64,000 bases of DNA, taken from contig NZ_KB911461.1 of assembly GCF_000383475.1 (NCBI RefSeq), positions 186,001-250,000 of the forward strand. Reading direction: 5' to 3'. This document shows, piece by piece, positions 36,638 to 64,000 of the stretch. Source of the DNA: Microbacterium sp. 11MF (lineage in GTDB: Bacteria > Actinomycetota > Actinomycetes > Actinomycetales > Microbacteriaceae). The notes beneath the pieces were generated by a model. It worked only from the letters and a program-made list of their open reading frames with translations. It made no database searches and had not been told where the DNA came from. Position 1 is the first letter of the stretch. Each line of letters begins with the position of its first letter. The translations under genes and the position numbers were made by a program.

Positions 36638-37572
36638 ACCGGCACGTCCTTTCGATCGGAGACGGCGTTCAGGGAGGAGGAGGTGAGTTCGGTCCGCCAC
36701 GAGTGCTGCGGCCGCCAGCCGAGCACGCGCGCCGCCTTCGCGTTCGAGAACGCGGGCGAGGTGCCGGTGAGGGCGCGGGCGAGGTCGTCGGTCCCGGGGA
36801 CGAAGCGCGGCAGGAGCTCGGCCAGGGGGGCGTCGGCCAGCGCATCGTCGGCGCCGACGAAGAACACCTCGGCGTTCGGGATGTCGGGGAGCGCCCCCAG
36901 CAGCAGATCGGTGAACGATGCAACGTCGCGGGCGTCGACGTAGTTGAAGAGGGCCGGAGCCGACAGTGCGGGATCGGCGATCCGCTCGGCGACCGTGTGG
37001 CCCTGCTGGGTCGGGGCCCCCGCCCATTCCTCGGGCGCGATGACGTAGCAGGGGCGGAACGTCGCGTAGCGGACGTCGTCGCCGGTGCGCCGGTGCAGCA
37101 TCGACACGGTCTGCTCGATCATGAGCTTCGACAGCGCGTACGCGTTCCACGGCCGCGGCGTCGACGTCTCGTCGAGCGGCAGGGACTCGGGCAGCCAGCC
37201 CGACGGGTTGCCGTAACCGAGCACGGTGGGGCTGGATGCCGCGACGACGCGTCCGATGCCGGCATCCACCGCTCCGCCGAGGACCGAGACGGCGAGACCG
37301 GTGTTCGTCCGCATGATCACGTCTTCGGGGGCGCTGAACGGTACGGCGATTGCGGCGAGGTGCACGAGCGAGTCGGCCTTCGCCCGCATGAGCGTCTCGG
37401 CGGTGGCCGCCGCGTCGAGCAGGTCGATCGAGATCTGCTCGACGCCGTCGATGCGGAGGTCGTCGGACGGGGCGCGATCGAGCGAGACGACCTCGTGCCC
37501 GAATGCGGCGAGCCCGGCGACGAGGTTGCGCCCGAGTCGGCCTGAGCCGCCGGTGACGACGACGCGACTCAT
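36634..37572 (-). CDS. udh: uronate dehydrogenase
   Basis: A 312-residue NAD-dependent epimerase/dehydratase-fold protein. It has GGSGRLG at residues 8-14, LVHLAAI near 69-75 and catalytic Tyr145 and Lys149 in NAYALSK. The length and context match uronate dehydrogenase, which oxidises D-galacturonate or D-glucuronate to the aldarolactone. It overlaps the Gfo/Idh gene by 4 bases upstream. A sugar epimerase is the alternative, less likely next to kdgD. Confidence 0.82.
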   Translation of the reverse strand: MSRVVVTGGSGRLGRNLVAGLAAFGHEVVSLDRAPSDDLRIDGVEQISIDLLDAAATAETLMRAKADSLVHLAAIAVPFSAPEDVIMRTNTGLAVSVLGGAVDAGIGRVVAASSPTVLGYGNPSGWLPESLPLDETSTPRPWNAYALSKLMIEQTVSMLHRRTGDDVRYATFRPCYVIAPEEWAGAPTQQGHTVAERIADPALSAPALFNYVDARDVASFTDLLLGALPDIPNAEVFFVGADDALADAPLAELLPRFVPGTDDLARALTGTSPAFSNAKAARVLGWRPQHSWRTELTSSSLNAVSDRKDVPV

Positions 37573-38915
37573 CGGGGAATCCGGGGTGTCGAGTCGCGGA
37601 GGATCGCGACGCCGAGATCGGCGACCTGCACCGGCAGGCCGGTCTCGAGCGAGCGGTTGCCGGCGATGCCGACCGCGATCGATCGGACGCCGTCGGTCCA
37701 GTCGGCAGGACGGCCGAGCGGGTCGTTCACCGGCCCTGCGAAGACATCGGCCAGGAGCAGGGCGTCGCCGCCGCCGTGAGCGGATTCGCCCGAGACGATC
37801 GGAACCTCGACGGCCTCCTCCCAGTGGCGCTGCACGAGCAGGCGCTCGCCCATGGGGCGGAGGCTCGAGTGCGCGGCATCCTGCACCGCGCTGGGGTCGA
37901 CGACCGGGTGCAGTCCGTCGCCGACGAGGACGGCGCCCCGCTCGACGACCTCAAGCTCCGCGCGGCCCTCGGTGCCGTTGATCGCGACGCGGTAGCCCTC
38001 CCAGGGGGCGTGCGCGTTCAGCGAGTACGACAGGGTCGCGCCGTCCGAGTAGTCGACGACGAGGGCGAGGTTGTCCTCGATCGTGATGCCGGGTCCGAAG
38101 ACGTCGCGGTCGCGGACGTAACCGTCGTGCTGCTCGGCGTCGAGGTACAGCGCGCGCAGGCGCTCGTCGCCGCGCAGGTCGAGCTCGAACGGGTCGCGGT
38201 TGCCGTCGTGCGTGCCGCGGTCGGGGCGGTCACCGAGGCCACGGGCGGCGGCGTTGTCGGCGCCGTAGAAGCGGAGGGCTCCCGAGGCGAAGACGCGGCG
38301 CGGGCGCTGCCCGATCCACCAGTTGACGAGGTCGAAGTGGTGGCTGGACTTGTGGACGAGGAGCCCGCCGGAGTGCTCCTTCTCGCGGTGCCAGCGGCGG
38401 AAGTAGTCCGCGCCGTGCTGCGTGTCGAGCATCCAGGAGAAGTCGATGGAGGTGACGCGACCGATCCGGCCCTCGGCGATGACCTGGCGCAGGGCGGTGT
38501 TGCGCGGCGCGTACCGATAGTTGAAGGTCAGGACGACCGATCGCCCCGTGCGCTGGGCGGCCGCCTCGATCGCGGCGGCGCTGGCCGCGTCGATGGTGAG
38601 GGGCTTCTCGACGACGACGTCGGCCCCAGCATCCATCGATCGGACGATCAGCTCGGCGTGCAGGTCGTCGCGCGCCGTCACGATGACCCGCTCGATGCGC
38701 TCTGCGCGGATCATCTCCTCGAGCTGGTCGGGCTGCCAGGTGGACGGAGCGGCGAGGCCGTGGTCGACGAGGCGGTCGACGTAGAACTGCGCGCGGGTCG
38801 GGTTCGGCTCGCAGATCGCGACGAGGTCGGCGCGGTCGCGGTAGTCGTCGGCGATGGCGTCCACGTACATCTGTGCGCGGTGGCCTGCGCCGACGAGGGC
38901 GTACCGGGTGGTCAT
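37569..38915 (-). CDS. Gfo/Idh/MocA-family oxidoreductase
   Basis: A 448-residue oxidoreductase with an N-terminal NAD(P) fold (YALVGAGHRAQMYVDAI) and the EKP motif in DVVVEKPLT near residue 104. The rest is the C-terminal substrate domain with HKSSHHFDLVNWWIG, which supplies likely catalytic His and Asp residues. It is the first gene of the uronate operon and follows a LacI-type operator. The substrate is unknown; it may oxidise a modified uronate or an oligosaccharide end so that it can enter the pathway. Confidence 0.85.
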   Translation of the reverse strand: MTTRYALVGAGHRAQMYVDAIADDYRDRADLVAICEPNPTRAQFYVDRLVDHGLAAPSTWQPDQLEEMIRAERIERVIVTARDDLHAELIVRSMDAGADVVVEKPLTIDAASAAAIEAAAQRTGRSVVLTFNYRYAPRNTALRQVIAEGRIGRVTSIDFSWMLDTQHGADYFRRWHREKEHSGGLLVHKSSHHFDLVNWWIGQRPRRVFASGALRFYGADNAAARGLGDRPDRGTHDGNRDPFELDLRGDERLRALYLDAEQHDGYVRDRDVFGPGITIEDNLALVVDYSDGATLSYSLNAHAPWEGYRVAINGTEGRAELEVVERGAVLVGDGLHPVVDPSAVQDAAHSSLRPMGERLLVQRHWEEAVEVPIVSGESAHGGGDALLLADVFAGPVNDPLGRPADWTDGVRSIAVGIAGNRSLETGLPVQVADLGVAILRDSTPRIPR

Positions 38916-48664: not shown

Positions 48665-50623
48665 TCAGCCGAGGCGGAGAGCGGTGACAACCTCGGCATC
48701 CGACAGCCGACCGTCGGCGACGAGCAGGCGGTAGGAGCGGGTGACGGGGATGCCGGGGGCCAGCTCCACGGCACGGTCCCAGGCGAGGGCGGCGCCGATG
48801 CCCGGGTAGCCCGCGACCCGGACGAACCAGGGGTCGGCCGCCGAGTCCTGGTCGAGCGGCGCCATCGCGACGGTCGCCGTGCCGGTGGGGAACTCCGCTG
48901 ACCACGCGAGCCAGGGGGCGACGGTGCCGTGCACCGCATCCTCGCCCTGCGCCGAGGCGGTCCGCACGTCGACGTCGGTCGCCGCGGGCAGCCGCCACGC
49001 GAGTCCGCCGTAGCCGCCGCCGACCCGGCCGTTGCTGCCCGGGCCGCCGAGGTGCAGCGTGCCGGCGCGCGTGGCGAGCGTGAACGTCAGGTCGATGGTG
49101 GCCGCGCCGGGCCCGGCCTCGGCGACCGTCATCCGACGCTGCTCGGTGAGCATCTGCGCGCCATCGCGGCCGATCCACGCGAACTCGGCTTCGAGGGCGG
49201 ATGCCGCCCCCTCGACGCGCGTCGCGACGATGCGTCCGTGGTCGTCGCGCCAGACGTAGTCGCGTCCGGGGGTGTAGGTGCGGCCGCCCCAGAAGTTGAC
49301 TCCCGAGACGTCTTGCAGCGAGACGCTGATGCCGAGGTGCCAGTCGTGGTCGGCGGGGTGCGTGTCTGACACGACGACGCCGCCCGGCGTGCTCACCGGA
49401 TGGAGGTAGGGACGCGGGCTCGACGATCGGGTCACATCGGCGCCGTCGACGAGGACGGCGATCGGATGCTGCGGCTCGCCCGGTGCGGCGAGGTCGGCCA
49501 GGACGGCGGCCTCGGTCTTCGCGGCCCACGGCAGGTGCAGCTCCGCGAAGGTCGCCTCGGCGTCGACCGCGCGCTCCACGGCGTCCTGCACGCCCGTGAT
49601 GACGACGCGCGGCGAGCGGCCCTCCTCGTTCCACGTCACGAACGCGGCGTCGATCGCGACCGGCTCGGTGTCGGCGACGGCATCCATCACACGGACGAAG
49701 GCTCCCGTCTCGTGCAGCGGAGCGAGCATCGGCGTGCCGTGGTCGCGGTGGTCGAGCAGGTTCTCGACGAGGTCCACGCGGCCGAACTCGACGCGGCGGC
49801 CGTCGGTCTCGACGACGTCCTCCGTGTAGAAGAAGGTGGCCGATCCGCGCGTGCCGCGGATGAGGACGTACGGGTCCTCGTCCTGCACGGCGCAGAGGGT
49901 CAGCGCGGAGGTGACGCGGATGCCGCGCCCGGTCGACAGACGGATGACGCTGGTGTCGTCCCCCTCGATGGCGTTGGCGCGGTAGAGATCGGCGGTGATC
50001 TGCGTCACGTCCGTGGCGGCGGTCGACTGGGCGACGGCGAGGGCGGTCGCGGTCGCGTGGGCGAGCGGGTTCGCGACGACGCCGTCGAGGACGGGGAACC
50101 CGTCGAGCACACGGTGCCCGGCCCAGCGGCTGCGCGACCAGTACGCCCGGTCGCGGCACCACAGGCCGACGGCGCCGATCGCCTGGATAGGTCCGAGCCC
50201 GAACTCGTCGGCGATGAGGGCGGGGATGGCGAGCGATCCGAGGCTCTGGAACCCTACCTGGACGCGCGCGCCCGAGGCCGCGGCGGCATCCGCCAACACG
50301 GTGAAGTCGGCGGACGACAGCACGGGCGGCTTCTCGAGGTAGAGGTCGATGCCGCGCGAGACGACGAGGCCGGCGAGGGCGGCGTGGGTGTGCAGCGGCG
50401 TCGCGACGATGACCACGTGGATGTCGTCGACGGCGTCGAGCGCATCGGCGAGTGAGGCGAACGCCTGCGTGCCCGTCGGCAGGTTCTCGGGCGGCACGGG
50501 GGTGGGATCGGCGACGGCCACGAGCTCCACGCGATCGCCGAGGCGGCGCAGGTTCTCGAGGTGGACGGTTCCGAAGCCCTGGGCTCCGGCGAGGACGATG
50601 CGGGTTCGTCGGGGGACGGTCAC
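48665..50623 (-). CDS. Gfo/Idh oxidoreductase fused to DUF6807 domain
   Basis: A 652-residue two-domain protein. Residues 1-about 360 are a Gfo/Idh/MocA dehydrogenase with IVLAGAQGFGTVHLENL and the EKP motif in YLEKPPVLS. Residues about 380-652 are a DUF6807 (PmoA-like) beta domain with HDWHLGISVSLQDVSGVNFWG. DUF6807 is usually a separate protein in sugar loci, so the fusion joins two steps acting on one substrate. GAAGGAG sets the GTG start at 50623. The reaction is unknown. Confidence 0.82.
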   Translation of the reverse strand: MTVPRRTRIVLAGAQGFGTVHLENLRRLGDRVELVAVADPTPVPPENLPTGTQAFASLADALDAVDDIHVVIVATPLHTHAALAGLVVSRGIDLYLEKPPVLSSADFTVLADAAAASGARVQVGFQSLGSLAIPALIADEFGLGPIQAIGAVGLWCRDRAYWSRSRWAGHRVLDGFPVLDGVVANPLAHATATALAVAQSTAATDVTQITADLYRANAIEGDDTSVIRLSTGRGIRVTSALTLCAVQDEDPYVLIRGTRGSATFFYTEDVVETDGRRVEFGRVDLVENLLDHRDHGTPMLAPLHETGAFVRVMDAVADTEPVAIDAAFVTWNEEGRSPRVVITGVQDAVERAVDAEATFAELHLPWAAKTEAAVLADLAAPGEPQHPIAVLVDGADVTRSSSPRPYLHPVSTPGGVVVSDTHPADHDWHLGISVSLQDVSGVNFWGGRTYTPGRDYVWRDDHGRIVATRVEGAASALEAEFAWIGRDGAQMLTEQRRMTVAEAGPGAATIDLTFTLATRAGTLHLGGPGSNGRVGGGYGGLAWRLPAATDVDVRTASAQGEDAVHGTVAPWLAWSAEFPTGTATVAMAPLDQDSAADPWFVRVAGYPGIGAALAWDRAVELAPGIPVTRSYRLLVADGRLSDAEVVTALRLG

Positions 50624-50659
50624 GGGGACTCCTTCGTCGGCTCCTTCGAGTATGCCAGC

Positions 50660-50672
50660 AAGCGCTTTCCCA
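50660..50672. promoter_or_regulatory. LacI-type operator upstream of the Gfo/Idh-DUF6807 gene
   Basis: On the minus strand GGGAAAGCGCTTG, a near-palindrome around GCGC, lies 37 bases before the GTG at 50623, downstream of the crcB gene end. It is the same GCGC-centred type as the site at 46693. Confidence 0.55.
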
Positions 50673-50690
50673 TGCGGCACCCTCTTCCCG

Positions 50691-51706: not shown

Positions 51707-53482
51707 ATGACGCGGAAAACGCTTTCCCATCTGGAAGGTCTCATCGACGGCGACCGCCCCGCGCGGTCGGTGCTGCGTCTGCTCGCCCGGCGGCCGGGAC
51801 GGATGACCGTCGCCGTCCTCGCGTTCGCGGCGAAGGAGATCCCGCTCTGGTTCCTGCCGGTCGTCACGGCCGCGGTCATCGACGTCGTCGCCGGCCGCGG
51901 CGACGTGTCGCAGGTCATGTGGTGGTTCGTGCTGGCCGCCGTCCTCCTGCTGCAGAACTACCCGAACCACATCCTCTACACGCGCAGCTTCATGACGGTC
52001 GTCCGCGACACCGGCGCTGACCTGCGCAACGCCCTCGCCGAGCGGCTGCAGAGCCTGTCGATCGGCTACCACACGCGCATCAGCTCGTCGATCGTGCAGA
52101 CCAAGGTCGTCCGCGACGTCGAGAACGTCGAGCTCATGCTGCAGCAGGTCACGCACCCGCTCCTGTCCGCGACGATGGTCATGATCGGCGCCATCACGAT
52201 GACCGCGATCGCCGTCCCCGCGTTCCTGCCGGTCTACGCGCTCGCCGTCCCGATCGCGATCGGCATCCGCTACGGCATGCGGCGACGTTCGCACGATCGC
52301 AACGCGCACTTCCGCCGCGAGGTCGAGACGCTCTCGGCCCGCGTCGGCGAGATGGCGTCCCTCATCCCCGTCACCCGGGCGCACGGCCTCGAGCAGACCG
52401 CTGTGACCCGGGTCGCGACCGGGGCCGACGGCGTCCGACGCGCCGGGCTGCACCTCGACATGCTCAACGGCCACGTCGCGTCCGTGTCGTGGGTCGCGAT
52501 GCAGCTGCTCGGGGTGGGATGCCTCGTCCTCGCCGCGACCTTCTCGCTCACGGGCATCCTGCCGATCACCCCCGGTGAGGTGGTGCTGCTGTCGACGTAC
52601 TTCACGCTGCTCACGCAGGGTCTGACGCAGCTGCTCATGCTCATCCCGGTCGGAGCGCGCGGACTCGAGTCGGTGCGCTCCATCGCCGAGGTGCTGCAGG
52701 ACCCCGACCTCGAGCAGAACGCCGGCAAGCGCACGGTCGACGCCGTCACGGGCAACCTGACCCTCCACCGCGCGTCGCACCGGTACGCCGGCGCCGCCGA
52801 GGATGCGCTGCACGCCATCGACCTGCACGTCCCCGCCGGCGCGACCGTCGCCTTCGTCGGGTCGTCGGGCTCGGGCAAGTCCACGATGCTCAACCTCATC
52901 CTCGGGTTCCTCCGCCCGACGGGAGGGCGCATCCTCCTCGACGGCGACGACATGCAGGACCTCGACCTGCGCACCGTCCGCCGATTCGTGTCGGTCGTTC
53001 CGCAGGAGTCCGTCCTCTTCGAGGGGACCATCCGCGAGAACATCGCCTACGGTCTCGGCGACGTCGACGACGCTCGGATTGAGCGGGCCCTGCGCGATGC
53101 GAACGCGTGGGGGTTCGTGCAGGACCAGCCGCAGGGGTGGGACACCGTGGTCGGCGAACGCGGCGCGCGCCTGTCGGGCGGCCAGCGGCAGCGGCTCGCG
53201 ATCGCCCGCGCTCTCATCCGCGACCCGAGGATCCTCCTGCTGGATGAGGCGACCAGCGCCCTCGACCCCGAGTCCGAGGAGCTCGTGAAAGATGCCCTCG
53301 GTCGCCTCATGACGGGGCGCACGACCCTTGTCGTCGCGCACCGGCTCTCGACCGTCCGGCAAGCCGACGTCATCGTCGTCCTCGAGCGCGGCGAGATCGT
53401 CGAGCGCGGCTCGCACGACGAACTGCTCGAGCGCGGCGGCCGCTACGCGCAGCTCCATCTCGCGCAGGCGGGTCTCGCATGA
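51707..53482 (+). CDS. ABC exporter, fused membrane and ATPase domains
   Basis: A 591-residue half-transporter with six helices (about residues 25-330) and an ATPase domain with Walker A GSSGSGKST near 384, signature LSGGQRQR near 487 and Walker B ILLLDEAT. It resembles lipid/multidrug-type exporters and acts as a dimer. The leaderless start and a LacI-type site inside codons 3-7 tie it to sugar control. It overlaps the next gene, a glycosidase-like protein, by 4 bases, which is unusual for an exporter. The substrate is unknown. Confidence 0.9.
   Translation: MTRKTLSHLEGLIDGDRPARSVLRLLARRPGRMTVAVLAFAAKEIPLWFLPVVTAAVIDVVAGRGDVSQVMWWFVLAAVLLLQNYPNHILYTRSFMTVVRDTGADLRNALAERLQSLSIGYHTRISSSIVQTKVVRDVENVELMLQQVTHPLLSATMVMIGAITMTAIAVPAFLPVYALAVPIAIGIRYGMRRRSHDRNAHFRREVETLSARVGEMASLIPVTRAHGLEQTAVTRVATGADGVRRAGLHLDMLNGHVASVSWVAMQLLGVGCLVLAATFSLTGILPITPGEVVLLSTYFTLLTQGLTQLLMLIPVGARGLESVRSIAEVLQDPDLEQNAGKRTVDAVTGNLTLHRASHRYAGAAEDALHAIDLHVPAGATVAFVGSSGSGKSTMLNLILGFLRPTGGRILLDGDDMQDLDLRTVRRFVSVVPQESVLFEGTIRENIAYGLGDVDDARIERALRDANAWGFVQDQPQGWDTVVGERGARLSGGQRQRLAIARALIRDPRILLLDEATSALDPESEELVKDALGRLMTGRTTLVVAHRLSTVRQADVIVVLERGEIVERGSHDELLERGGRYAQLHLAQAGLA
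51714..51727. promoter_or_regulatory. LacI-type operator inside the exporter coding start
   Basis: GGAAAACGCTTTCC covers codons 3-7 of the exporter gene, a few bases after the presumed transcription start. Confidence 0.6.
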
Positions 53483-54384
53483 TCGAGGTCTACCGCGATC
53501 CCGTCTACGACGGCGCGACCGATCCGCTCGTCGTGATCGCCGGCCCCGGCGACTGGTGGATGTTCTACACGCAGCGGCGCGCGACCCATCCCGACCCGGG
53601 TCCGGGCGTCGCCTGGGTGCACGGGAGTCGCATCGGCGTCGCCCGCTCGACCGACGGCATCCGCTGGTCGTACGCGGGGACGCTCGAGCCGACCGCCGAC
53701 GGGCTGCAGCTGGATGCCGCCGGCCCGCCCGCGCGCACGGATCGCACCCACTGGGCGCCCGAGGTCGTGTTCGACGGGCAGATCTGGCGGATGTACCTGA
53801 CCGAGATCGACGGAGTCCCCGACCGGTGGCCGGGGTACGCGCGTCACATCGTGGAGTACCGGTCGGCGGACCTGTCCGAGTGGCATCGGATCGGCGGGCT
53901 CGCTCTCGACAGCGACCGCGTGATCGACGCGGGTGTCGCTCGCACCCCCGACGGGCGCTGGCGCCTCTGGTACAAAGACGAGGCCGCCGAGTCGGTCACC
54001 AAGGTGGCCGTCTCGGACGACCTGACCACCTGGGAATCCGAGGGCACCGCGATCGGCGGACGGCCCCACGAGGGTCCGACGGTGTTCGAGCTGGGCGGGT
54101 TCTGGTGGATGATCGTCGACGAGTGGCGCGGCATGGGCGTGTACCGCTCGGACGATGCGACCTCGTGGCAGCGGCAGGGCGGAGCGGATGCCGTCATCCT
54201 CAGCGCCGGCACGGTGCCGAGCCCGGGGTTCGGCCATCACGGGGCGCCCGTGCGCGACGGGGAGCGCGTCTGGTTCTACTTCTTCACGCACCCGGGCGCG
54301 CCCGATGAACCCGATGAGCGACGCTGCGCCGTGCTCCGCGCCCGCCTCGAGGTGCGCGGCGACGAGCTCGTCGTGGTGCGCTGA
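53479..54384 (+). CDS. five-bladed beta-propeller glycosidase (GH43/GH117-like)
   Basis: A 301-residue protein without signal peptide. It begins EVYRDPVYDGATDPLVV, with the N-terminal Asp typical of GH43-clan propellers, followed by THWAPEVVFDG and repeated WxxxY blades. It could remove arabinose, galactose or another terminal sugar; family and substrate remain uncertain. It is translated with the ABC exporter (ATGA overlap). Confidence 0.75.
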   Translation: MIEVYRDPVYDGATDPLVVIAGPGDWWMFYTQRRATHPDPGPGVAWVHGSRIGVARSTDGIRWSYAGTLEPTADGLQLDAAGPPARTDRTHWAPEVVFDGQIWRMYLTEIDGVPDRWPGYARHIVEYRSADLSEWHRIGGLALDSDRVIDAGVARTPDGRWRLWYKDEAAESVTKVAVSDDLTTWESEGTAIGGRPHEGPTVFELGGFWWMIVDEWRGMGVYRSDDATSWQRQGGADAVILSAGTVPSPGFGHHGAPVRDGERVWFYFFTHPGAPDEPDERRCAVLRARLEVRGDELVVVR

Positions 54385-54461
54385 CTCGCGGCCTGGCCGG
54401 TCCGCTCAAGGTGCGAGTATGGTCCATAGGGTGGGTTGGGACCGGTCACAGGTGGCGTCGT

Positions 54462-54525
54462 AAAAACGTTTCAATCTTCTTGAAAAACGTTTCAATTGGC
54501 GCTACTCTCGGGGCAAGCGCTTTCC
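54462..54525 (+). promoter_or_regulatory. promoter and three LacI-type operators of the main ABC importer
   Basis: TTGAAA (54480-54485) and TACTCT (54503-54508) are 17 bases apart. AAAAACGTTTCAAT occurs at 54462-54475 and again at 54483-54496, 21 bases (two helical turns) apart; the second covers the -35 spacer. AAGCGCTTTCC at 54515-54525 covers the start site. Confidence 0.8.
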
Positions 54526-54619
54526 TGTGGGCATCGATCCACGGCACCGAAGGAAGTCGCAATCACGGACCATGACGTCCACCAGCACTCGCAACACGGA
54601 CGTTCGAGAGAGGACAAAG

Positions 54620-55906
54620 ATGTTCAGCAAACGCGTACTCGCCGCCGTCGCACTCGCGACGGGGTCAGTCATCGCCCTTGCCGGCTGCGCCGGCTCGCCG
54701 GAGCCCGCCGGCACCTACGACCCCGATGAGAAGGTCTCGCTCGACCTCGCGTTCTGGGGCAACGACGTGCGAGCCGATCTCTACAACAAGGCGATCGACG
54801 CGTTCAACGAGAAGTACCCGAATATCAAGGTGAGCACGAGCTTCCTCGCGTTCCCTGAGTTCTGGGAGAAGCGGCAGACCGAGGCGGCGGGCAAGAACCT
54901 CCCCGACGTCATGCAGTTCGACTACTCGTACCTGCGGCAGTACTCCGAGAACGGGCTCCTCCTCGACCTCGACCCGTACCTCGGCGGCATCATCGAGACC
55001 GACCCGCTCCCGCAGAACATCCTCGACATCGGCGTCGTAAACGACACCACCTACGGCATCGCCACCTCGACGAACGCCTGGGGTCTGTTCACCAACCCGG
55101 TCCTGCTCGAGAAGGCCGGTGTCGACGAGTTCCCCGGCGGCTCCTGGGACGACTACACCGCCTGGATGAAGGACATCACCGACGCCAGCGGCGGTGAGTA
55201 CTGGGGCGGCAGCGATTACACCGGCCGCATCCAGAACTTCGAACTCCAGTTGCGCGCGGAGGGCGGCAACCTCTTCACCGAGGACGGCAAGCCCGGTTTC
55301 GACGAGGCGCGCCTGAAGGCGTTCTGGGAGGAGGGCCAGTCGATCCGTGACGGCATCGGGGCGCCGCAGCAGACCGTCGAAGAGGCTCTGCCGCTCGGTC
55401 CGTTCGACACGGCCATCACCGCCAGCGAACTCACCTGGGACAACTTCGGCGCCGGCTACCTCGGCAACCTCGGCGAGAGCTACACCGAGCTCGGCCTCGT
55501 CGCCCCGCCGGTGACCGAGGAAGGCGCCAAGGACCTCTACCTGAAGCCCTCCATGCTGCACTCGATCGCGGCGAACACCGACCACCCCGAGGCTGCGGCG
55601 ACGCTCGTGAACTTCCTCGTCAACTCGCCCGAGTCGGGTGAGATCTTCGGCACCAACCGCGGTCTGCCCGCGTCGGAGACCGCTCTGGCCGCCGCCGACC
55701 TCGACCCGCTGAGCCAGCAGGTCAAGGCGTACGAGGAGTCCATCGCCGACCGTCTCGGCGACGCGCCTCCCGTTCCGATCGTCGGCTATGGCACCCTCGA
55801 GGAGAAGTTCCGTCAGCTCGGCGTCGAACTGAACTTCGGGACCATGACCGTGGACGAGGCCGTCTCGCAGTTCTTCACCGAGATGGACGTCGCCCTCAAC
55901 TCGTGA
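54620..55906 (+). CDS. sugar ABC transporter substrate-binding lipoprotein
   Basis: A 428-residue solute-binding protein. The signal peptide carries the lipobox LAGC with Cys23. The mature region shows LDLAFWGNDVRADLYNKA and an ITDASGGEYWGGSDY segment like those of the YtcQ/YesO/RhiL group that binds rhamnogalacturonan or galacturonan oligosaccharides. GAGAGGAC before the ATG at 54620 favours it over an ATG 31 codons upstream. It is followed by two permeases and a DUF624 protein, and is preceded by the strongly controlled promoter. Confidence 0.93.
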   Translation: MFSKRVLAAVALATGSVIALAGCAGSPEPAGTYDPDEKVSLDLAFWGNDVRADLYNKAIDAFNEKYPNIKVSTSFLAFPEFWEKRQTEAAGKNLPDVMQFDYSYLRQYSENGLLLDLDPYLGGIIETDPLPQNILDIGVVNDTTYGIATSTNAWGLFTNPVLLEKAGVDEFPGGSWDDYTAWMKDITDASGGEYWGGSDYTGRIQNFELQLRAEGGNLFTEDGKPGFDEARLKAFWEEGQSIRDGIGAPQQTVEEALPLGPFDTAITASELTWDNFGAGYLGNLGESYTELGLVAPPVTEEGAKDLYLKPSMLHSIAANTDHPEAAATLVNFLVNSPESGEIFGTNRGLPASETALAAADLDPLSQQVKAYEESIADRLGDAPPVPIVGYGTLEEKFRQLGVELNFGTMTVDEAVSQFFTEMDVALNS

Positions 55907-55975
55907 CCGATCGCGGGGTCCGGATGCCGCGGCATCCGGGCCCCGCACCGTCCCCCCCGACATCAGGAGCCACCC

Positions 55976-56968
55976 GTGAGCACCACCGCGACGAGAGTCA
56001 TCGTCACCGGCGAGAAGCGGCGTCGCGCACTCGCGAACAAACGCCGGCCCGAGAACCTCAGCCGTCCCACCCAGCGCTCGCGCGCCCGCAAGGAGACGCT
56101 CGCCGGCTACGGATTCCTCATCCCATGGCTGGTCGGCTTCTTCGGGCTGACGATCATCCCGATGGGGTACTCGCTGTACCTGTCGTTCACGCGGTACAAC
56201 ATCTTCACGCCGCCCCGCTGGATCGGGTTCGACAACTACGTCCGCCTGTTCACGAACGACCCGCAGTTCATCCAGTCGGCGCAGATCACTCTCGTCTACG
56301 TGTTCGTCGGCACTCCGATCACTCTGATCGCGGCGCTTCTCGTGGCGATACTGCTCAATTACCGCGACAAGGGCGCCGGCTTCTTCCGCTCGGCCTTCTA
56401 CGCCCCGTCGCTCATCGGCGGATCGGTGTCGGTCGCGATCGTCTGGCGCGCCATGTTCGGCTCCGAGGGTCCCGTCGACTCGTCGCTCTCGGCCATCGGC
56501 ATCGACCTCGGCGGGTGGATCGGTAACCCGAGTCTCGTCCTGCCCGCGATGATCATCCTGTCGATCTGGCAGTTCGGCGCGACGATGGTCATCTTCCTCG
56601 CGGGACTCAAGCAGGTCCCGAAGGAGCTCTACGAAGCGGCCGAGATGGACGGCGCCGGGCCCTGGTACCGCTTCCGCGCGGTGACCCTTCCGATGCTGTC
56701 GCCGGTCATCTTCTTCAACCTGCTGCTGGGCCTGATCGGTGCGTTCCAGGTGTTCGCCTCGGCGTACATCATCTCGAACGGCTCGGGCGGCCCCGCCGGC
56801 ATGACGAACTTCATCACGATCTACCTCTACAAGCGGGGCTTCAGCGACGGCCAGATGGGCTATGCCGCTGCGATCGCCTGGGTCCTGCTGGTGGTCGTCG
56901 CGATCATCGCCTTCATCCTCTTCCGCACCCAGCGCTCCTGGGTGCACTACGCCGGAGACAACCGATGA
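55976..56968 (+). CDS. sugar ABC transporter permease (MalF-type)
   Basis: A 330-residue permease with a basic 40-residue cytoplasmic N-terminus, six helices and the EAA loop EAAEMDGAGPWYRFRAVTLP. AGGAG precedes the GTG start. It belongs to the same operon as the binding protein. Confidence 0.93.
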   Translation: MSTTATRVIVTGEKRRRALANKRRPENLSRPTQRSRARKETLAGYGFLIPWLVGFFGLTIIPMGYSLYLSFTRYNIFTPPRWIGFDNYVRLFTNDPQFIQSAQITLVYVFVGTPITLIAALLVAILLNYRDKGAGFFRSAFYAPSLIGGSVSVAIVWRAMFGSEGPVDSSLSAIGIDLGGWIGNPSLVLPAMIILSIWQFGATMVIFLAGLKQVPKELYEAAEMDGAGPWYRFRAVTLPMLSPVIFFNLLLGLIGAFQVFASAYIISNGSGGPAGMTNFITIYLYKRGFSDGQMGYAAAIAWVLLVVVAIIAFILFRTQRSWVHYAGDNR

Positions 56969-57900
56969 GCACATCCAACGTCGCCACGACCTCGGGCGCG
57001 GCATCCACCCCCGTCTTCGCCGCGCAGCAGACGATCGCCGCTCCGCCGCGGCGTCGCCGCGTCAAGCGCAAGACCTGGCAGACAGTCGTCTGGCTCGTCG
57101 TCCTGATCGCGCTGACCGCCCTCGTCCTGTACCCGCTCGTGTGGCTGGGCATCTCGACGCTGAAACCGAACTCCGAGTTCGGTCAGAACCCCGGACTCAT
57201 CCCGCAGCAGCCGACCTTCGACAACTATCTGAAGGTCTTCGACGGCATCGCCGGCGTCCCGCTGTGGCAGTTCTTCGGCAACTCGCTCATCCTCGCGGTC
57301 CTGGCCGTCGTCGGAACCGTGTTCTCGAGCGCGCTGGCCGCCTACGCGTTCGCTCGCATCCAGTTCAAGGGACTCGGCATCCTGTTCGCGGCGATGATCG
57401 GCACGCTGTTGCTGCCGTTCCACGTCGTGATCATCCCGCAGTACATCCTGTTCAACAATCTGGGTCTGGTCGACACGTTCTGGCCGCTCGTGCTGCCGAA
57501 GTTCCTCGCGACGGAGGCGTTCTTCGTCTTCCTCCTCGTGCAGTTCATGCGTCAGATGCCGCGCGACATGGATGAGGCGGCCCGCATCGACGGCGCCGGA
57601 CACGTCCGGATCTTCTGGGCGATCATCCTTCCGCTCGTGAAGCCGGCGCTGATCACGTGCGCGATCTTCGCCTTCATCTGGTCGTGGAACGACTTCCTCG
57701 GGCCCCTGCTGTACCTGACGAGCCCGGAGAACTACCCGCTCCCGATCGCGCTGCGCCTCTACAACGACCAGTCGTCGACGAGCGACTTCGGCGCGACGGT
57801 CACGGCCTCGTTCCTCGCCCTCGTGCCCGTGCTGCTGTTCTTCCTCGTGTTCCAGCGCTTCCTCGTCGACGGCGTCGCGACGCAGGGCCTCAAGGGCTGA
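56965..57900 (+). CDS. sugar ABC transporter permease (MalG-type)
   Basis: A 311-residue permease with six helices and the EAA loop EAARIDGAGHVRIFWAIILP. Its ATG overlaps the previous stop by 4 bases. It completes the channel. Confidence 0.93.
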   Translation: MSTSNVATTSGAASTPVFAAQQTIAAPPRRRRVKRKTWQTVVWLVVLIALTALVLYPLVWLGISTLKPNSEFGQNPGLIPQQPTFDNYLKVFDGIAGVPLWQFFGNSLILAVLAVVGTVFSSALAAYAFARIQFKGLGILFAAMIGTLLLPFHVVIIPQYILFNNLGLVDTFWPLVLPKFLATEAFFVFLLVQFMRQMPRDMDEAARIDGAGHVRIFWAIILPLVKPALITCAIFAFIWSWNDFLGPLLYLTSPENYPLPIALRLYNDQSSTSDFGATVTASFLALVPVLLFFLVFQRFLVDGVATQGLKG

Positions 57901-58560: not shown

Positions 58561-60246
58561 TCAGCGCACGCGACGGGCGGTGAACGTCGCCCGCCCGGGT
58601 GTCGTCCCGGTCACGTAGAGCCGCGGACCACCCAGGGCGTCGGTGCCGCCCAGGTAGTCGTAGTCCTCACCGGGAAGGTACGCGGCCGGTGCGGACGAGC
58701 CCGTCCCGGGGCCGATCTCGAGGATGTCGTCGCCGACGGCGTACCGCGCGGTCCCGTCGGTGAGCACGGCCGTGCCGTCGGCCCGCACGTCGACCCCCTC
58801 AAACGCGCCGCCCGCGCGGAAGGCGAACTCGAGGCTCCACGCACAGATCGGACCCTCGGTCTCGACCGTCAGCTGAACGCCGTCCTCGACGGGCACGACG
58901 TCGATGCGGGTACGGAGCGGAACCTCGTCGCGCGGACGCTCGTCGAACGACATCGCGGCCGAGAAGCGACCCTCGTCGACGACGCGGTAGTCGCCGCCCG
59001 GGCGGCGGAGCGTGGTGTCCAGCGGCCCGAAGTACGCGGGGGAGAGCCGCTCCTCGAGCACGATGCGGTCGTCCTCGACGGTCATCTCATCGGCGCGGAG
59101 CGGGCCGAGACCGAAGAAGTGCCGCGAGAGTCGCACCGAGTCGAGGACGGCGTCGCCGGCGAACAGGCGCAGGAACGTCGGGTTGCTCGCGAGGCCCGAG
59201 CGGATGCGGCGGGCGACGGTGTAGTCCGACCCGCCGAAGACCACCAGCGAACGGTCGGGCGTTCGGTCGACGACGAGCCCCGAGACCGGCCACACGAGTC
59301 GCGCCCGGTCAGCCGGCGCCGTGCCCGCGGGCAGCGGCTCGCGCAGCGCCGGGTGCAGGATCATGTCGGCGAGGGCCGTCTGCGGATCGATGACGGGGGC
59401 GGATGCCGCGACCCGCGCCGCCCACGCGAAGTCACCCCGTCCCGTCTCGAGTGCGATGCGGCGGTAGTGGAGGGTGAACGGCGCGAGGGGGAACCTGGTC
59501 TCGCGCTGATCCTGCCTGCGGGAGTGCACGGTCTCGACGGAGCCGTCGGGGTGGATGAGTCCCAGGGTCGCCTCGAGGTTCCGTGCCACGACGTCGTGGA
59601 GCTCGGGCAGGCCGAGGACGTCGCCGATGACCAGAAGGGAGGGATTCGAGACGTAGACGGCGTAGTTGGCGCTGCGCTCGGAGTACAGGCCGTCGGCGTC
59701 GATGTCGATGCCCTCGGCGAGCCACTCGCGCGCCCGCGCCTCGAGCCGCGGGTCGGGGCGGTGTCGATGCAGCCGGGTGAGCGCGGCGCTCAGCTCCCAG
59801 CGATGGTTCGGCGTGTGCACGCCACCCGCGAGCAGCGCCGGGGCGGCGCGATCGGCGATGCCTCCCAGCACCTCGGCGACCCGGTCGAGCCGGGCGTCGC
59901 CCGAGCGGCGCGCGAGCTCGAGGATGTCGCCGACGTCGTTGATCGTGAATCCGGTGTCGGGCGGCGACTCGACGTTGTCGCCGCCGAGGAAGAGCCCCGT
60001 CGGCGACTGCAGGTCGTGCAGGATCCCCGCATACTTCTCGGCGAGGGCGACCGCCGCCGGGTCGCCGGCGAACGCGGACCCCGGCTCGAGGAAGACCGCG
60101 ACCAGCAGTTTGGCGCGCCGCATCGACTCGCGGTGCGGACCGAGCGGGGCGAGCGACACATCGGTCGACGCCTGCAGGAGCGCGGTGGCCTCGGCATCCG
60201 CCGCGGCGATCACGTCGGCGATGAAGGTATCGGTGTCGATCATCAT
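58561..60246 (-). CDS. alpha/alpha-toroid protein, candidate polysaccharide lyase
   Basis: A 561-residue protein without signal peptide. Residues 1-about 310 are helix-rich, with GVHTPNHRWELSAAL near 145 and DGLYSERSANYAVYVSNP near 190. These carry Asn-His and Tyr residues placed as in heparinase-type toroid lyases. The rest is a beta-sandwich domain. No known family could be named. It overlaps the GH38 gene by 4 bases, so it acts on the same imported glycan, possibly a uronic-acid-containing mannose glycan. Function inferred. Confidence 0.7.
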   Translation of the reverse strand: MMIDTDTFIADVIAAADAEATALLQASTDVSLAPLGPHRESMRRAKLLVAVFLEPGSAFAGDPAAVALAEKYAGILHDLQSPTGLFLGGDNVESPPDTGFTINDVGDILELARRSGDARLDRVAEVLGGIADRAAPALLAGGVHTPNHRWELSAALTRLHRHRPDPRLEARAREWLAEGIDIDADGLYSERSANYAVYVSNPSLLVIGDVLGLPELHDVVARNLEATLGLIHPDGSVETVHSRRQDQRETRFPLAPFTLHYRRIALETGRGDFAWAARVAASAPVIDPQTALADMILHPALREPLPAGTAPADRARLVWPVSGLVVDRTPDRSLVVFGGSDYTVARRIRSGLASNPTFLRLFAGDAVLDSVRLSRHFFGLGPLRADEMTVEDDRIVLEERLSPAYFGPLDTTLRRPGGDYRVVDEGRFSAAMSFDERPRDEVPLRTRIDVVPVEDGVQLTVETEGPICAWSLEFAFRAGGAFEGVDVRADGTAVLTDGTARYAVGDDILEIGPGTGSSAPAAYLPGEDYDYLGGTDALGGPRLYVTGTTPGRATFTARRVR

Positions 60247-63200
60247 GACTGCTCCGGTTCGTGCAGGGCGATGCGCAGGGTGACGACCTCGAACGCGCGC
60301 AAGTCGAGCGCGACGGTGCGGTCGTCGGTCCGCGCGGCGTCGGCGCGGCCGCGGCCGACGGTCTCGACGAGGTCGCAGACCTCGAGCGATGAGGCGGGGA
60401 CGTCGAGGTGCAGCGTGCCGCCGGTGCGGGCGCCGCGCTGCTCGAAGGCGCGGACGATGAGGTCGCCGCTGCCGTCCGCCGCGAGCTTGACCGCCGAGAC
60501 GACGATGCCGTCGGTCGAGCTCGTCACGAGCGGTGCGACCGGCGCTGCGCCCGTGACCTCGCGCAGCGGCGAACCGACGATCGCACCCCAGCGAGCGGCA
60601 TCCGTCGTCGTCTCGGCCGGCGCGAAGAGCGACGTGAACTCGTGCACGCCCTGATCCGCGTCGGGGTCGGGGAACGTCGGCGCGCGCAGCAGCGACTGCC
60701 GCACGGTCGTGACCGTCCCGTCCTCGTCGCTCGTGCGCGTCGCATCGTGGCCGTACATGCCGTCGTTGACGATCGCCGCACCGGTGCCCGGCTCGCCGAC
60801 GTGCACCCACCTGTGCGCGCAGACCTCGTAGCGGGCGGCATCCCACGACGTGTTCGTGTGCAGCGGGCGACGCACGTGACCGAACTGCGTCTCGTAGGCC
60901 GCGTCCTGCGCGTGCACCGCGACGGGGAAGGCGAGCTTGAGCAGACGGTGCCGCTCGTGCCAGTCGACGCGGGTGCGGATGCGGACGCCGCCGCCCTCGG
61001 GGTGGATGTCGATCCATTGCTCGGCGGTGCCGTTCGGCAGCGGGTGCACGACGTGCACGACGCCGTCGACCAGCTCGGCCGTGCCGCCGTCGACGTCTGT
61101 CGTGGCGAGGCGGTACGAGGCGTCGAGCTCCCACGCGTCCCACTTCGACGGTGCATCGACGTGCAGCTGCAGCAGTCCGCCGCGGTGACCGGCGGGGATG
61201 AGGTCACGCCCGGTGGCGAGCTCGACCACGCTCCGGAGGGTGCCGTCGGGTCCGACGCGCACGTCGATCTGGTCGGAGCACAGGCGGAATCCGCCGTCGA
61301 CGTTCTCGGCCGTGACCGGCACCGGCGCCGGCGCGGGTCCCGCGCCGCCCGCGGCGATCGCGGCGACGGGTGCCGTGCCCGGGTTGAGCGCCATGGGCTG
61401 CGAACCCTCGCCGACGAGGGCGGCGACGGCATCCGCGATGATCCGCTCGAGCCGGTCGGTCGTCTCGGCGTGCGAGCGCTCCGCCTCGCGGTGCACCCAC
61501 GCGATCGCGCTGCCGGGGAGGATGTCGTGGAACTGAAGCAGCAGCACCTCGCGCCAGAGCTCGTCGAGCTCGGCCGCCGGATAGGGGATGCCGCGGCGTA
61601 CCGTGGCCGCGGCGCTCCAGTGCTCCGCCTCGACGAGCAGGGCCTCGTTGCGACGGTTGCCGCGCTTGGTGCGCATCTGCGACGTGAAGATGCCGCGGTG
61701 GAACTGCAGGTACATCTCGCCGGACCAGACCGGCGGGTCGGTCGGTTCGGCGGCCGCCTCGAGGAAGAACTCGCGCGGCGTGCCGAAGGCGACCGTGGGG
61801 GAGCCCTCGAGGTCGGCCTGCAGGCGGGCGTCGGCCATCATCTCGCGTGTCGGTCCGCCGCCGCCGTCGCCGAAGCCGAACGGCATGAGCGAGCGGGTGC
61901 TGGCCGCGTGGTCGGCGAAGTTGCGGACACTGCGGGCGAGCTCGGTCGGCCGCATGTCGCCGCTGTAGGTGTTGTTCGGCGGGAAGTGCGTGAAGATCCG
62001 CGACCCGTCGAGTCCCTCCCAGACGAAGGAGTGGTGCGGCATCGTGTCGACGTCGTTCCAGCACATCTTCTGCGTGAAGAACCACTCCAGTCCCGCGCCG
62101 CGCAGCAGCTGGGGGAGTCCGGCGGGGAACCCGAACGAGTCGGGCAGCCACCCGACGTCGCTGCGCGCTCCGAAGTGCTCCTCGAAGAAGCGCGTGCCCG
62201 CCAGTAGCTGACGGGCCAGCGATTCGCCCGAGGGCATGTTGACGTCGGATTCGACCCACATGTTGCCGACGGGGAGGAAACGTCCCTCGGCGACGCGTTC
62301 CTTGATCCGCGCGAAGAGCTCGGGATCGCTGCGGCGCACCCACTCGAAGTGCTGCGCCGACGAGCTGACGAAGACGGCATCGGGATCGGCTTCCATGAGA
62401 TCGAGCACGTTCGCGTACGTGCGCGTGACCTTCCGCACCGTCTCGCGGCTCGGCCACAGCCACGCAGAGTCGATGTGGGCGTGCCCCGTCGCGGTGATGC
62501 GGTGAGCGGATGCCGCGGCCGGTGCCGCGAGGAGGGGAGCGAGGATGCCGCGGGCCGCCGCCGCACCCTCGGCGGGCGCGTCGGGGTCGATCGCGTACAG
62601 CGCGCGCTCGAGTCCGTCGAGGATGCGCGCGCGACGCGGATCGGAGTCGACCAGCTCGCGGGCGAGGCCGACGAGCACGATGACCTCGCGGCGGAGGCGC
62701 TCGACGTTCTCGTCGACGAGGTGCAGCTCCATCCGTCCGAGGCGGTAGAGGGGCTCGGCGCCGGCCGTGGCCGGGTCGCCGAGCGGAGTGGGCGAGAAGG
62801 CGAGGGGGCTCTTGAAGTCGTCGCCCCCCGACAGGTCGGGATTCGCGGCGGCCTCGACCGTGAACGACACGCGCTCACCGGGGCCGTTCGACACGGGGAC
62901 GTGATGGTTCCGCGGCTCGAGGCCCTTCACCACGACGCCCTCCGGCGTCCGCACGAGTCCCTCGCACTGGAAGCCGGGTTTGGCCTGCGAGAAGCCGAGG
63001 TCGAGCGACAACTCGATGCGGCCGTCGCGCTCGGCCCAAGACCGCGGCACCTCGCCCTCGACGGTGAACCACGTCGTGCCCCAGGCGCGGCCCCAGCGGT
63101 GACCGCCCTCGACGGGGGCGAACGCGGCATCCTGCCGCATCCGCTCCACCGACACCGGTTCGCCCGGCAGGTCGCCCTTGTCGGGGACCTGCCAGGCGGA

Positions 63201-63299
63201 CACGTGGAGCGGAGCTCGGTCGGCGACGACGGCCCGGTCGAGGTACTCCCCGACGAAGCGGTCGACGCGTTCCAGGACGAGGTGGTCCCGTGAATGCAT
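60243..63299 (-). CDS. GH38 alpha-mannosidase
   Basis: A 1018-residue enzyme with an N-terminal beta domain (residues 1-about 260), the GH38 barrel with GHAHIDSAW (residues 272-280, zinc ligands His273? and Asp277) and the nucleophile Asp387 in GWLPDSFGFP, and a large C-terminal beta-sandwich region. It cuts alpha-mannosides in the cytoplasm after uptake. The ATG at 63299 shares one base with the stop of the ABC permease gene. The frame is open further upstream but overlaps the permease. Confidence 0.92.
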   Translation of the reverse strand: MHSRDHLVLERVDRFVGEYLDRAVVADRAPLHVSAWQVPDKGDLPGEPVSVERMRQDAAFAPVEGGHRWGRAWGTTWFTVEGEVPRSWAERDGRIELSLDLGFSQAKPGFQCEGLVRTPEGVVVKGLEPRNHHVPVSNGPGERVSFTVEAAANPDLSGGDDFKSPLAFSPTPLGDPATAGAEPLYRLGRMELHLVDENVERLRREVIVLVGLARELVDSDPRRARILDGLERALYAIDPDAPAEGAAAARGILAPLLAAPAAASAHRITATGHAHIDSAWLWPSRETVRKVTRTYANVLDLMEADPDAVFVSSSAQHFEWVRRSDPELFARIKERVAEGRFLPVGNMWVESDVNMPSGESLARQLLAGTRFFEEHFGARSDVGWLPDSFGFPAGLPQLLRGAGLEWFFTQKMCWNDVDTMPHHSFVWEGLDGSRIFTHFPPNNTYSGDMRPTELARSVRNFADHAASTRSLMPFGFGDGGGGPTREMMADARLQADLEGSPTVAFGTPREFFLEAAAEPTDPPVWSGEMYLQFHRGIFTSQMRTKRGNRRNEALLVEAEHWSAAATVRRGIPYPAAELDELWREVLLLQFHDILPGSAIAWVHREAERSHAETTDRLERIIADAVAALVGEGSQPMALNPGTAPVAAIAAGGAGPAPAPVPVTAENVDGGFRLCSDQIDVRVGPDGTLRSVVELATGRDLIPAGHRGGLLQLHVDAPSKWDAWELDASYRLATTDVDGGTAELVDGVVHVVHPLPNGTAEQWIDIHPEGGGVRIRTRVDWHERHRLLKLAFPVAVHAQDAAYETQFGHVRRPLHTNTSWDAARYEVCAHRWVHVGEPGTGAAIVNDGMYGHDATRTSDEDGTVTTVRQSLLRAPTFPDPDADQGVHEFTSLFAPAETTTDAARWGAIVGSPLREVTGAAPVAPLVTSSTDGIVVSAVKLAADGSGDLIVRAFEQRGARTGGTLHLDVPASSLEVCDLVETVGRGRADAARTDDRTVALDLRAFEVVTLRIALHEPEQS

Positions 63300-64000
63300 C
63301 AGTCCTTGAGTCCTGCGTTGATGTTCGACGAGGTCACGTACTTCTGGAACACGAGGTACAGCGCGACCAGGGGGATCATCGACAGCACTGATGCCGCCAG
63401 GAGGATCGTCCACTCGATGTTCTCGGCGCCGACCAGGGCCCGCAGCGCGATCTGCAGGGTGAACTGCTCGGGGTCGCCGAGGATGATGAGCGGGAAGATG
63501 TAGTCGTTCCAGCGCCACTGGAAGGACATGATCGCCAGCGTCAGCGCGATGGGCCGGGCCAGCGGCAGCATGATCCGGAAGAAGATGCCGTATTCGCTCG
63601 CACCGTCGATGCGCGCGGCCTGCATGAGCTCGTCCGGGATCGTGATGAAGAACTGGCGGAACATGAAGACGCCGGTCGGGGTGACGATCGAGGGGATGAT
63701 CACACCGGCGAGCTGGTTGTAGAGCCCGAGGTCGCGGATGACGACGAACATGGGGTTGAGGATGACCTCGCCCGGCAGCATCGTCATCGAGAGGATGAAG
63801 AGTCCCAGGACGCTCAGCCACGGGTTCTTGTACTTCGCGAGCGCGTAGCCCGTCGTCGCGCAGAGGAAGACCGTCAGGACGGTCGACACCGTCGCCACGA
63901 TCGCCGTGTTCAGGAAGTAGCGGGCGAAGTCGATGCGCTCGAGCGCCGCCTCGTAGCCGCCGAGCGTCCACTCCTTGGGGAAGAACGACAGCGGGTAGCT
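63299..64000 (-). CDS. sugar ABC transporter permease (MalG-type), cut by window edge
   Basis: The C-terminal 233 residues of a permease reach the window edge, in frame from 64000. It has several helices and the EAA loop QAARIDGASEYGIFFRIMLP. It is the last gene of an upstream importer operon coupled to the GH38 and toroid genes, so the imported sugar is probably a mannose-containing oligosaccharide. Confidence 0.9.
   Translation of the reverse strand, partial: SYPLSFFPKEWTLGGYEAALERIDFARYFLNTAIVATVSTVLTVFLCATTGYALAKYKNPWLSVLGLFILSMTMLPGEVILNPMFVVIRDLGLYNQLAGVIIPSIVTPTGVFMFRQFFITIPDELMQAARIDGASEYGIFFRIMLPLARPIALTLAIMSFQWRWNDYIFPLIILGDPEQFTLQIALRALVGAENIEWTILLAASVLSMIPLVALYLVFQKYVTSSNINAGLKD

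Follow-up and report, generated by a model that had tools for sequence, protein, structure and literature searches.

The 561-residue lyase-like protein encoded near the end of the window (the whole analyzed stretch of 64,000 nucleotides, bases 186001-250000 of its contig) probably belongs to an uncharacterised family in the toroid-plus-beta-sandwich clan, whose members would be cytosolic lyases that cut oligosaccharides at 4-O-glycosylated uronates, as judged from its structural model, conserved residues and gene context. Computation gives good support to the enzyme class. Two features make this probable family of intracellular uronate lyases unusual, the lack of a conserved histidine in the beta domain and an association with inositol catabolism.

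The lyase-like gene and its operon

The lyase-like gene is part of a sugar import operon (Table 1) and has its closest relatives in Microbacterium oleivorans. The initial annotation had reported that the GH38 alpha-mannosidase gene overlaps both of its neighbors, and both junctions were found. The overlap with the lyase-like gene comprises 4 bases (ATGA; GH38 stop TGA at 60245-60243, lyase start ATG at 60246-60244), that with the permease gene 1 base (TGATG; permease stop TGA at 63301-63299, GH38 start ATG at 63299-63297). The earlier view ended inside the permease gene; what lies beyond position 64000 (L008) comprises a divergent gene run in addition to the genes for the second permease and the binding protein. 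Four Pfam domains of the GH38 protein scored above the curated cut-offs (PF01074 with 307 bits, PF09261, PF07748, PF17677), with the N-terminal, middle and C-terminal GH38 domains all present, and PDB alpha-mannosidases were matched with an E-value of 3e-218. The permease encoded in the window matched PF00528, and the binding protein carries a lipoprotein-type N-terminus.

Table 1. Features of the lyase locus and its surroundings (positions refer to the window unless preceded by L008)
Feature	Position	Strand	Remarks
Lyase-like gene	58561..60246	minus	561 aa; ORF, AlphaFold2 model, fold matches, invariant residues, profile alignment
GH38 alpha-mannosidase gene	60243..63299	minus	1018 aa; Pfam, NCBIfam, PDB, junctions
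ABC sugar permease 2 gene	63299..64000	minus	cut by window end, continues in L008; Pfam
Permease 1 and binding protein genes	L008:1186-3423		beyond permease 2, outside window
Gfo/Idh-DUF993-TIM barrel run	L008:3694-7031		divergent from importer operon
Glycerate kinase and DUF2264 protein	L008:8120-11125		after LacI regulator, same sugar island
Gfo/Idh/MocA-DUF6807 fusion ORF	48665..50680	minus	671 aa

For the lyase-like protein, as for the 41 members searched, no Pfam or NCBIfam family match was obtained, including PL12, PL15, PL17, PL21 and the other PL families modelled there. Single-sequence and profile searches yielded no PDB chain related by sequence, and the matches that appeared (ETO domain, designed repeat protein) were rejected as short chance matches. 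The earlier statement that no family could be named holds for Pfam/NCBIfam models and PDB sequences, by which it was judged; a numbered CAZy family without a Pfam model could still fit. The N-terminus of the protein is not strongly hydrophobic (best 19-residue mean 1.2), and the protein is therefore probably cytosolic. As this N-terminus does not resemble a signal peptide and an ABC importer would feed the enzyme, imported oligosaccharides are the probable substrates, and the term "polysaccharide" lyase used in the initial annotation is unlikely to apply.

Predicted fold and comparison with known lyases

An AlphaFold2 model calculated from 41 sequences (pLDDT 89.2, pTM 0.89) showed both domains proposed from the sequence, i.e., helices forming an alpha/alpha toroid up to about residue 302, followed by the strands of an antiparallel beta-sandwich. 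The 50 matches listed by Foldseek were all toroid lyases, except for human dermatan sulfate epimerase 1 (DSE1), which itself has the same fold. In VIA-align, heparinase III/HepC (PL12) ranked first with a Z of 20.3, followed by PL35, PL39, PL33, PL8, and PL17; the matches spanned residues 5-561 approximately, and thus both domains, at 8-14% identity. According to the tool, helical arrangements may commonly give Z values as high as about 13, and the observed values exceed that. The suggested structure prediction and fold search hence returned polysaccharide lyases and not a hydrolase family, and the model shows the fold of the toroid-plus-sandwich lyase clan. A match of this kind over the whole length supports the term lyase; a shared fold by itself is no proof of function.

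Among the known enzymes, PL12 heparinase III/HepC (4mmh, 4fnv, 5jmf) reached the highest Z values (19.4-20.3) and likewise has some 50 residues between its Asn and Tyr. However, identity is only 11-13%, and the lyase-like protein has no Pfam Hepar_II_III match, lacks a conserved beta-domain His and is apparently cytosolic. The fold is also shared by the PL35 GAGases II and VII (8khv, 8khw) and by PL33 (BtPL33HA), with Z values of 17-19.5. These enzymes use an Asn neutraliser and a Tyr as acid/base (PMC12088678; PMC11848413), but they also employ a beta-domain His and bind Mn or Zn, and no such invariant His is present here. PL15 exo-heparinase (6lja) contains adjacent Asn336-His337 and Tyr390, and PL21 heparinase II contains His202, Glu205, and Tyr257 (PMC12088678, Table 4). 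N147-H148, E151, and Y195 of the lyase-like protein resemble these sets, a match based on spacing and not on superposition; identity to both is low, and both add a beta-domain His.

Candidate catalytic residues

In 110 family sequences H144, N147, H148, R149, E151, E190, Y195, and the SRRQDQ block at 242-247 (numbering of the 561-residue protein) were invariant or nearly so; the HTPNHRWE motif and Y195 were essentially invariant, so the motifs picked out initially are no accident. The Asn-His and Tyr motifs had been called lyase-like before, and they indeed aligned with heparinase-like catalytic positions. When the family profile was compared with that of 23 heparinase-type proteins (score 45, E-value 2e-4, a weak probability of 45%, 193 columns), N147-H148 fell on their conserved NH and E190...Y195 on their dG...E.s..Y motif. 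Shuffled templates scored at most 23, except for 4 of 100 at 131-141, the single inspected one of which was a 7-column end artefact. The Asn(-His) neutraliser and the toroid Tyr typical of the clan were thus both found at the level of a profile alignment, which is not a structural superposition.

In lyases of the toroid fold an Asn neutralises the carboxylate and a Tyr serves as acid or base, and in PL12, 17, 33, 35, and 39 a catalytic His is located in the beta domain (PMC12088678; PMC11848413). After residue 300 no position held a His in more than 48% of the 110 sequences. On present evidence the protein would work like the lyases of this fold, but for lack of such a conserved beta-domain His it is not to be placed in any of these five families. 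The invariant residues Y405, Y420, R372, R384, R427, and R437 are candidates for taking over the role of the missing His.

Distribution and gene context in relatives

Scanning a genome collection for the family gave 294 confirmed loci, and all 80 that were kept are actinobacterial. Lyase genes were carried by 35 of 396 genomes in an even sample of the order and by 5 of 396 in a phylum-wide sample, the latter indicating a patchy distribution. A total of 114 loci was compared (the 80 named actinobacterial loci plus 34 stretches from the even sample of the order). Permeases of the same type accompanied the lyase in 110 of them, and a binding protein did so in 107. The general unit consists of the lyase, a binding protein and two permeases. 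GH38 was found at the window locus and in only 15 of the 114 loci of relatives, so mannose is not a general theme and the GH38 coupling is local. The pathway proposed initially, in which lyase and mannosidase together cut a uronic-acid-containing mannose glycan, therefore stood in part: fold, motifs and the neighbors described next speak for its lyase, but mannose could not be retained as a common denominator.

UGL is a GH88 enzyme. At two loci of related genomes from one family (L145 and L148) the lyase gene is surrounded by genes for GH88, an SDR protein scoring as gluconate 5-dehydrogenase (KduD/DhuD-like) and an RpiB/LacAB isomerase. UGL, DhuD, and DhuI process unsaturated uronates and belong to the families observed there (PMC12838403), and the neighbors thus point to an unsaturated uronate as product. 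This context, assigned at family level in two related genomes, is the strongest independent hint of such a product. The arrangement resembles the streptococcal-type UGL-DhuD-DhuI pathway, whereas such genes are missing from the window's own locus and the lyase belongs to a different, unnamed family. At a further locus (L151) the lyase operon contains a GH88-fold gene that scores as NCBIfam "BglB". A search of the own genome (2.9 Mb) found no GH88.

Outside the actinobacteria, Subdoligranulum variabile (Bacillota) encodes a distant relative (L197:11836-13464, about 28% identical) with the HTPNHRW motif, adjoining genes for GH2, a GH78 rhamnosidase and a ROK protein. The family thus extends past the actinobacteria, and perhaps to other substrates as well. 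In Streptomyces, a second unnamed toroid-plus-strand protein is encoded directly downstream of the lyase gene (L074:11649-13475 and about 35 other loci); its conserved N177, Y237, and H393 are spaced as in the Asn-Tyr-His triad of polysaccharide lyases, and its model is of low confidence (pLDDT 62). GH65, PAP2, and PMT-type neighbors in Streptomyces were judged bystanders, and two recurrent ORF clusters (c53, c20) that appear antisense to real genes were dropped.

Inositol genes and the surrounding sugar island

The best extra clue to the substrate is inositol. Genes for myo-inositol catabolism were located within about 10 kb of the lyase gene in 14 of the compared loci. At L040 iolC, an aldolase gene, iolB, iolD, iolE, iolG, a DUF6807 gene and the genes for lyase, binding protein and permeases follow each other in one direction, and at L151 inositol genes flank the lyase operon on both sides. 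Relative gene order varies by lineage. In Microbacterium the inositol and lyase genes converge or point the same way; they diverge in one genus belonging to another family and converge in a second. Using a quick method, the inositol-adjacent state was found to change at least 7 times on the lyase tree. In the 396-genome sample of the order iolD was present in 32 of the 35 lyase genomes versus 129 of the 361 others (Fisher p 8e-11, ignoring relatedness), and it adjoined the lyase gene in 8 of these 32, with 0.15 expected. Most Streptomyces lyase loci are without inositol genes. The own genome carries iolD on a different contig, and at the window locus Gfo/Idh, DUF993, and TIM-barrel genes are found in place of the inositol genes.

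These genes open the run that diverges from the importer operon beyond position 64000, where they are followed by genes for LacI, glycerate kinase and DUF2264. At another locus (L141) the Gfo/Idh, DUF993, and TIM-barrel genes form one run with lyase, importer and GH38. Our literature search found no paper mentioning DUF993. For the Gfo/Idh/MocA-DUF6807 fusion of the window, separate homologues of both halves adjoin the lyase gene at L029, L030, L042, L040, and L141, and the two parts are possibly an accessory enzyme or functional pair, which is a weak assignment. Between the lyase operon and this fusion, genes at 53479-57900 (plus strand) encode a second sugar ABC importer, which is complete, and a protein of weak GH43 type, as part of a larger sugar island. 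A further Gfo/Idh/MocA protein (37572-38915, minus strand) is 57% identical to one encoded near the lyase gene at L140 and L142.

Proposed function and alternative explanations

While operon, fold, invariant residues and gene context were computed, we infer the chemistry, the residue roles and the substrate. The binding protein and the two permeases would import a short glycan with a 4-O-glycosylated hexuronate, from which GH38 would trim alpha-mannose. N147, aided by H144, H148, and R149, would neutralise the uronate carboxylate, and Y195, possibly with H148 as base, would handle the C5 proton and protonate the leaving O4, leaving a 4,5-unsaturated uronate.

The leading candidate class of substrate is that of the glycosyl-glucuronosyl-inositols, e.g., Man- or GlcNAc-GlcA-inositol, the head group of plant glycosylinositol phosphorylceramides (GIPCs, a kind of sphingolipid); taken by itself, this substrate assignment is less likely than not. 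The BadF-type kinase superfamily, represented at the lyase loci of other branches, includes N-acetylglucosamine kinases. A uronate lyase together with alpha-mannosidase in one branch, BadF-type kinase in others and inositol catabolism would fit plant GIPC heads. In Arabidopsis this head is Man-GlcA-inositol phosphate, in tomato GlcNAc replaces Man (PMC11496612; PMC9113257), and phospholipases cutting GIPCs release free head groups (PMC11496612). A bacterial pathway consuming such heads, which would import them, trim them, cleave them at the glucuronate by beta-elimination in the cytosol and deliver the inositol to the iol pathway, is conceivable and rather doubtful as a whole. Its weak point is a head with a single mannose, where GH38 would be in competition with the lyase for one bond.

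Among the alternatives, a different reaction on the same fold deserves most attention, although it is unlikely. The protein might be an epimerase, or a lyase acting with Gfo/Idh, DUF6807, DUF993, and TIM-barrel proteins on oxidised (keto) sugars and not on plain uronates. Dermatan sulfate epimerase 1 among the fold matches, the missing beta-domain His and the recurrence of Gfo/Idh with DUF6807, or of Gfo/Idh-DUF993-TIM, near the lyase gene (all in one run at L141) are in line with this. It is countered by the strict conservation of the Asn-His and Tyr positions of uronate lyases and by the GH88 and DhuD/DhuI-like neighbors, which indicate an unsaturated-uronate product.

Two other explanations keep the lyase and change the substrate. 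The Man-GlcA-glycerol head of actinobacterial glycolipids, which occurs in Corynebacterium, would be attacked by the same lyase mechanism in place of an inositol glycan. Its alpha-Man on GlcA suits GH38 plus lyase, and a glycerate kinase gene is located in the same island (L008:8120-9223); we nevertheless consider it improbable, given that no further lyase locus has a glycerate kinase neighbor in the flanks examined and that several lineages repeatedly have inositol genes next to the lyase. Digestion of xanthan-type side chains (Man-GlcA-Man), in which the lyase would replace PL8 xanthan lyase and the inner alpha-mannose would be taken off by GH38, is very unlikely. The xanthan regions of Paenarthrobacter 6C and Microbacterium XT11 do cluster a lyase (PL8), GH38, and ABC importers, and an enzyme removing glucuronate intracellularly is not known there (PMC12772297). 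Unlike these regions, which contain PL8 and GH9, the own genome gave no match for PF08124 (PL8) or PF00759 (GH9), both searches being positive in other genomes; the absence of GH9, PL8, and GH88 makes xanthan unlikely. Moreover, most relatives are without GH38, and the inositol genes would be left unexplained.

No bacterial route for the use of plant sphingolipid head groups was found in the literature searched. For a widespread actinobacterial family without assigned function, the analysis proposes an enzyme class, catalytic residues and a substrate that can be put to the test. If the inositol reading is true, these genes would be the first candidates for a set of enzymes with which bacteria consume the heads of plant sphingolipids, and a lyase of this kind would moreover serve as a tool in the analysis of GIPC-type glycans.
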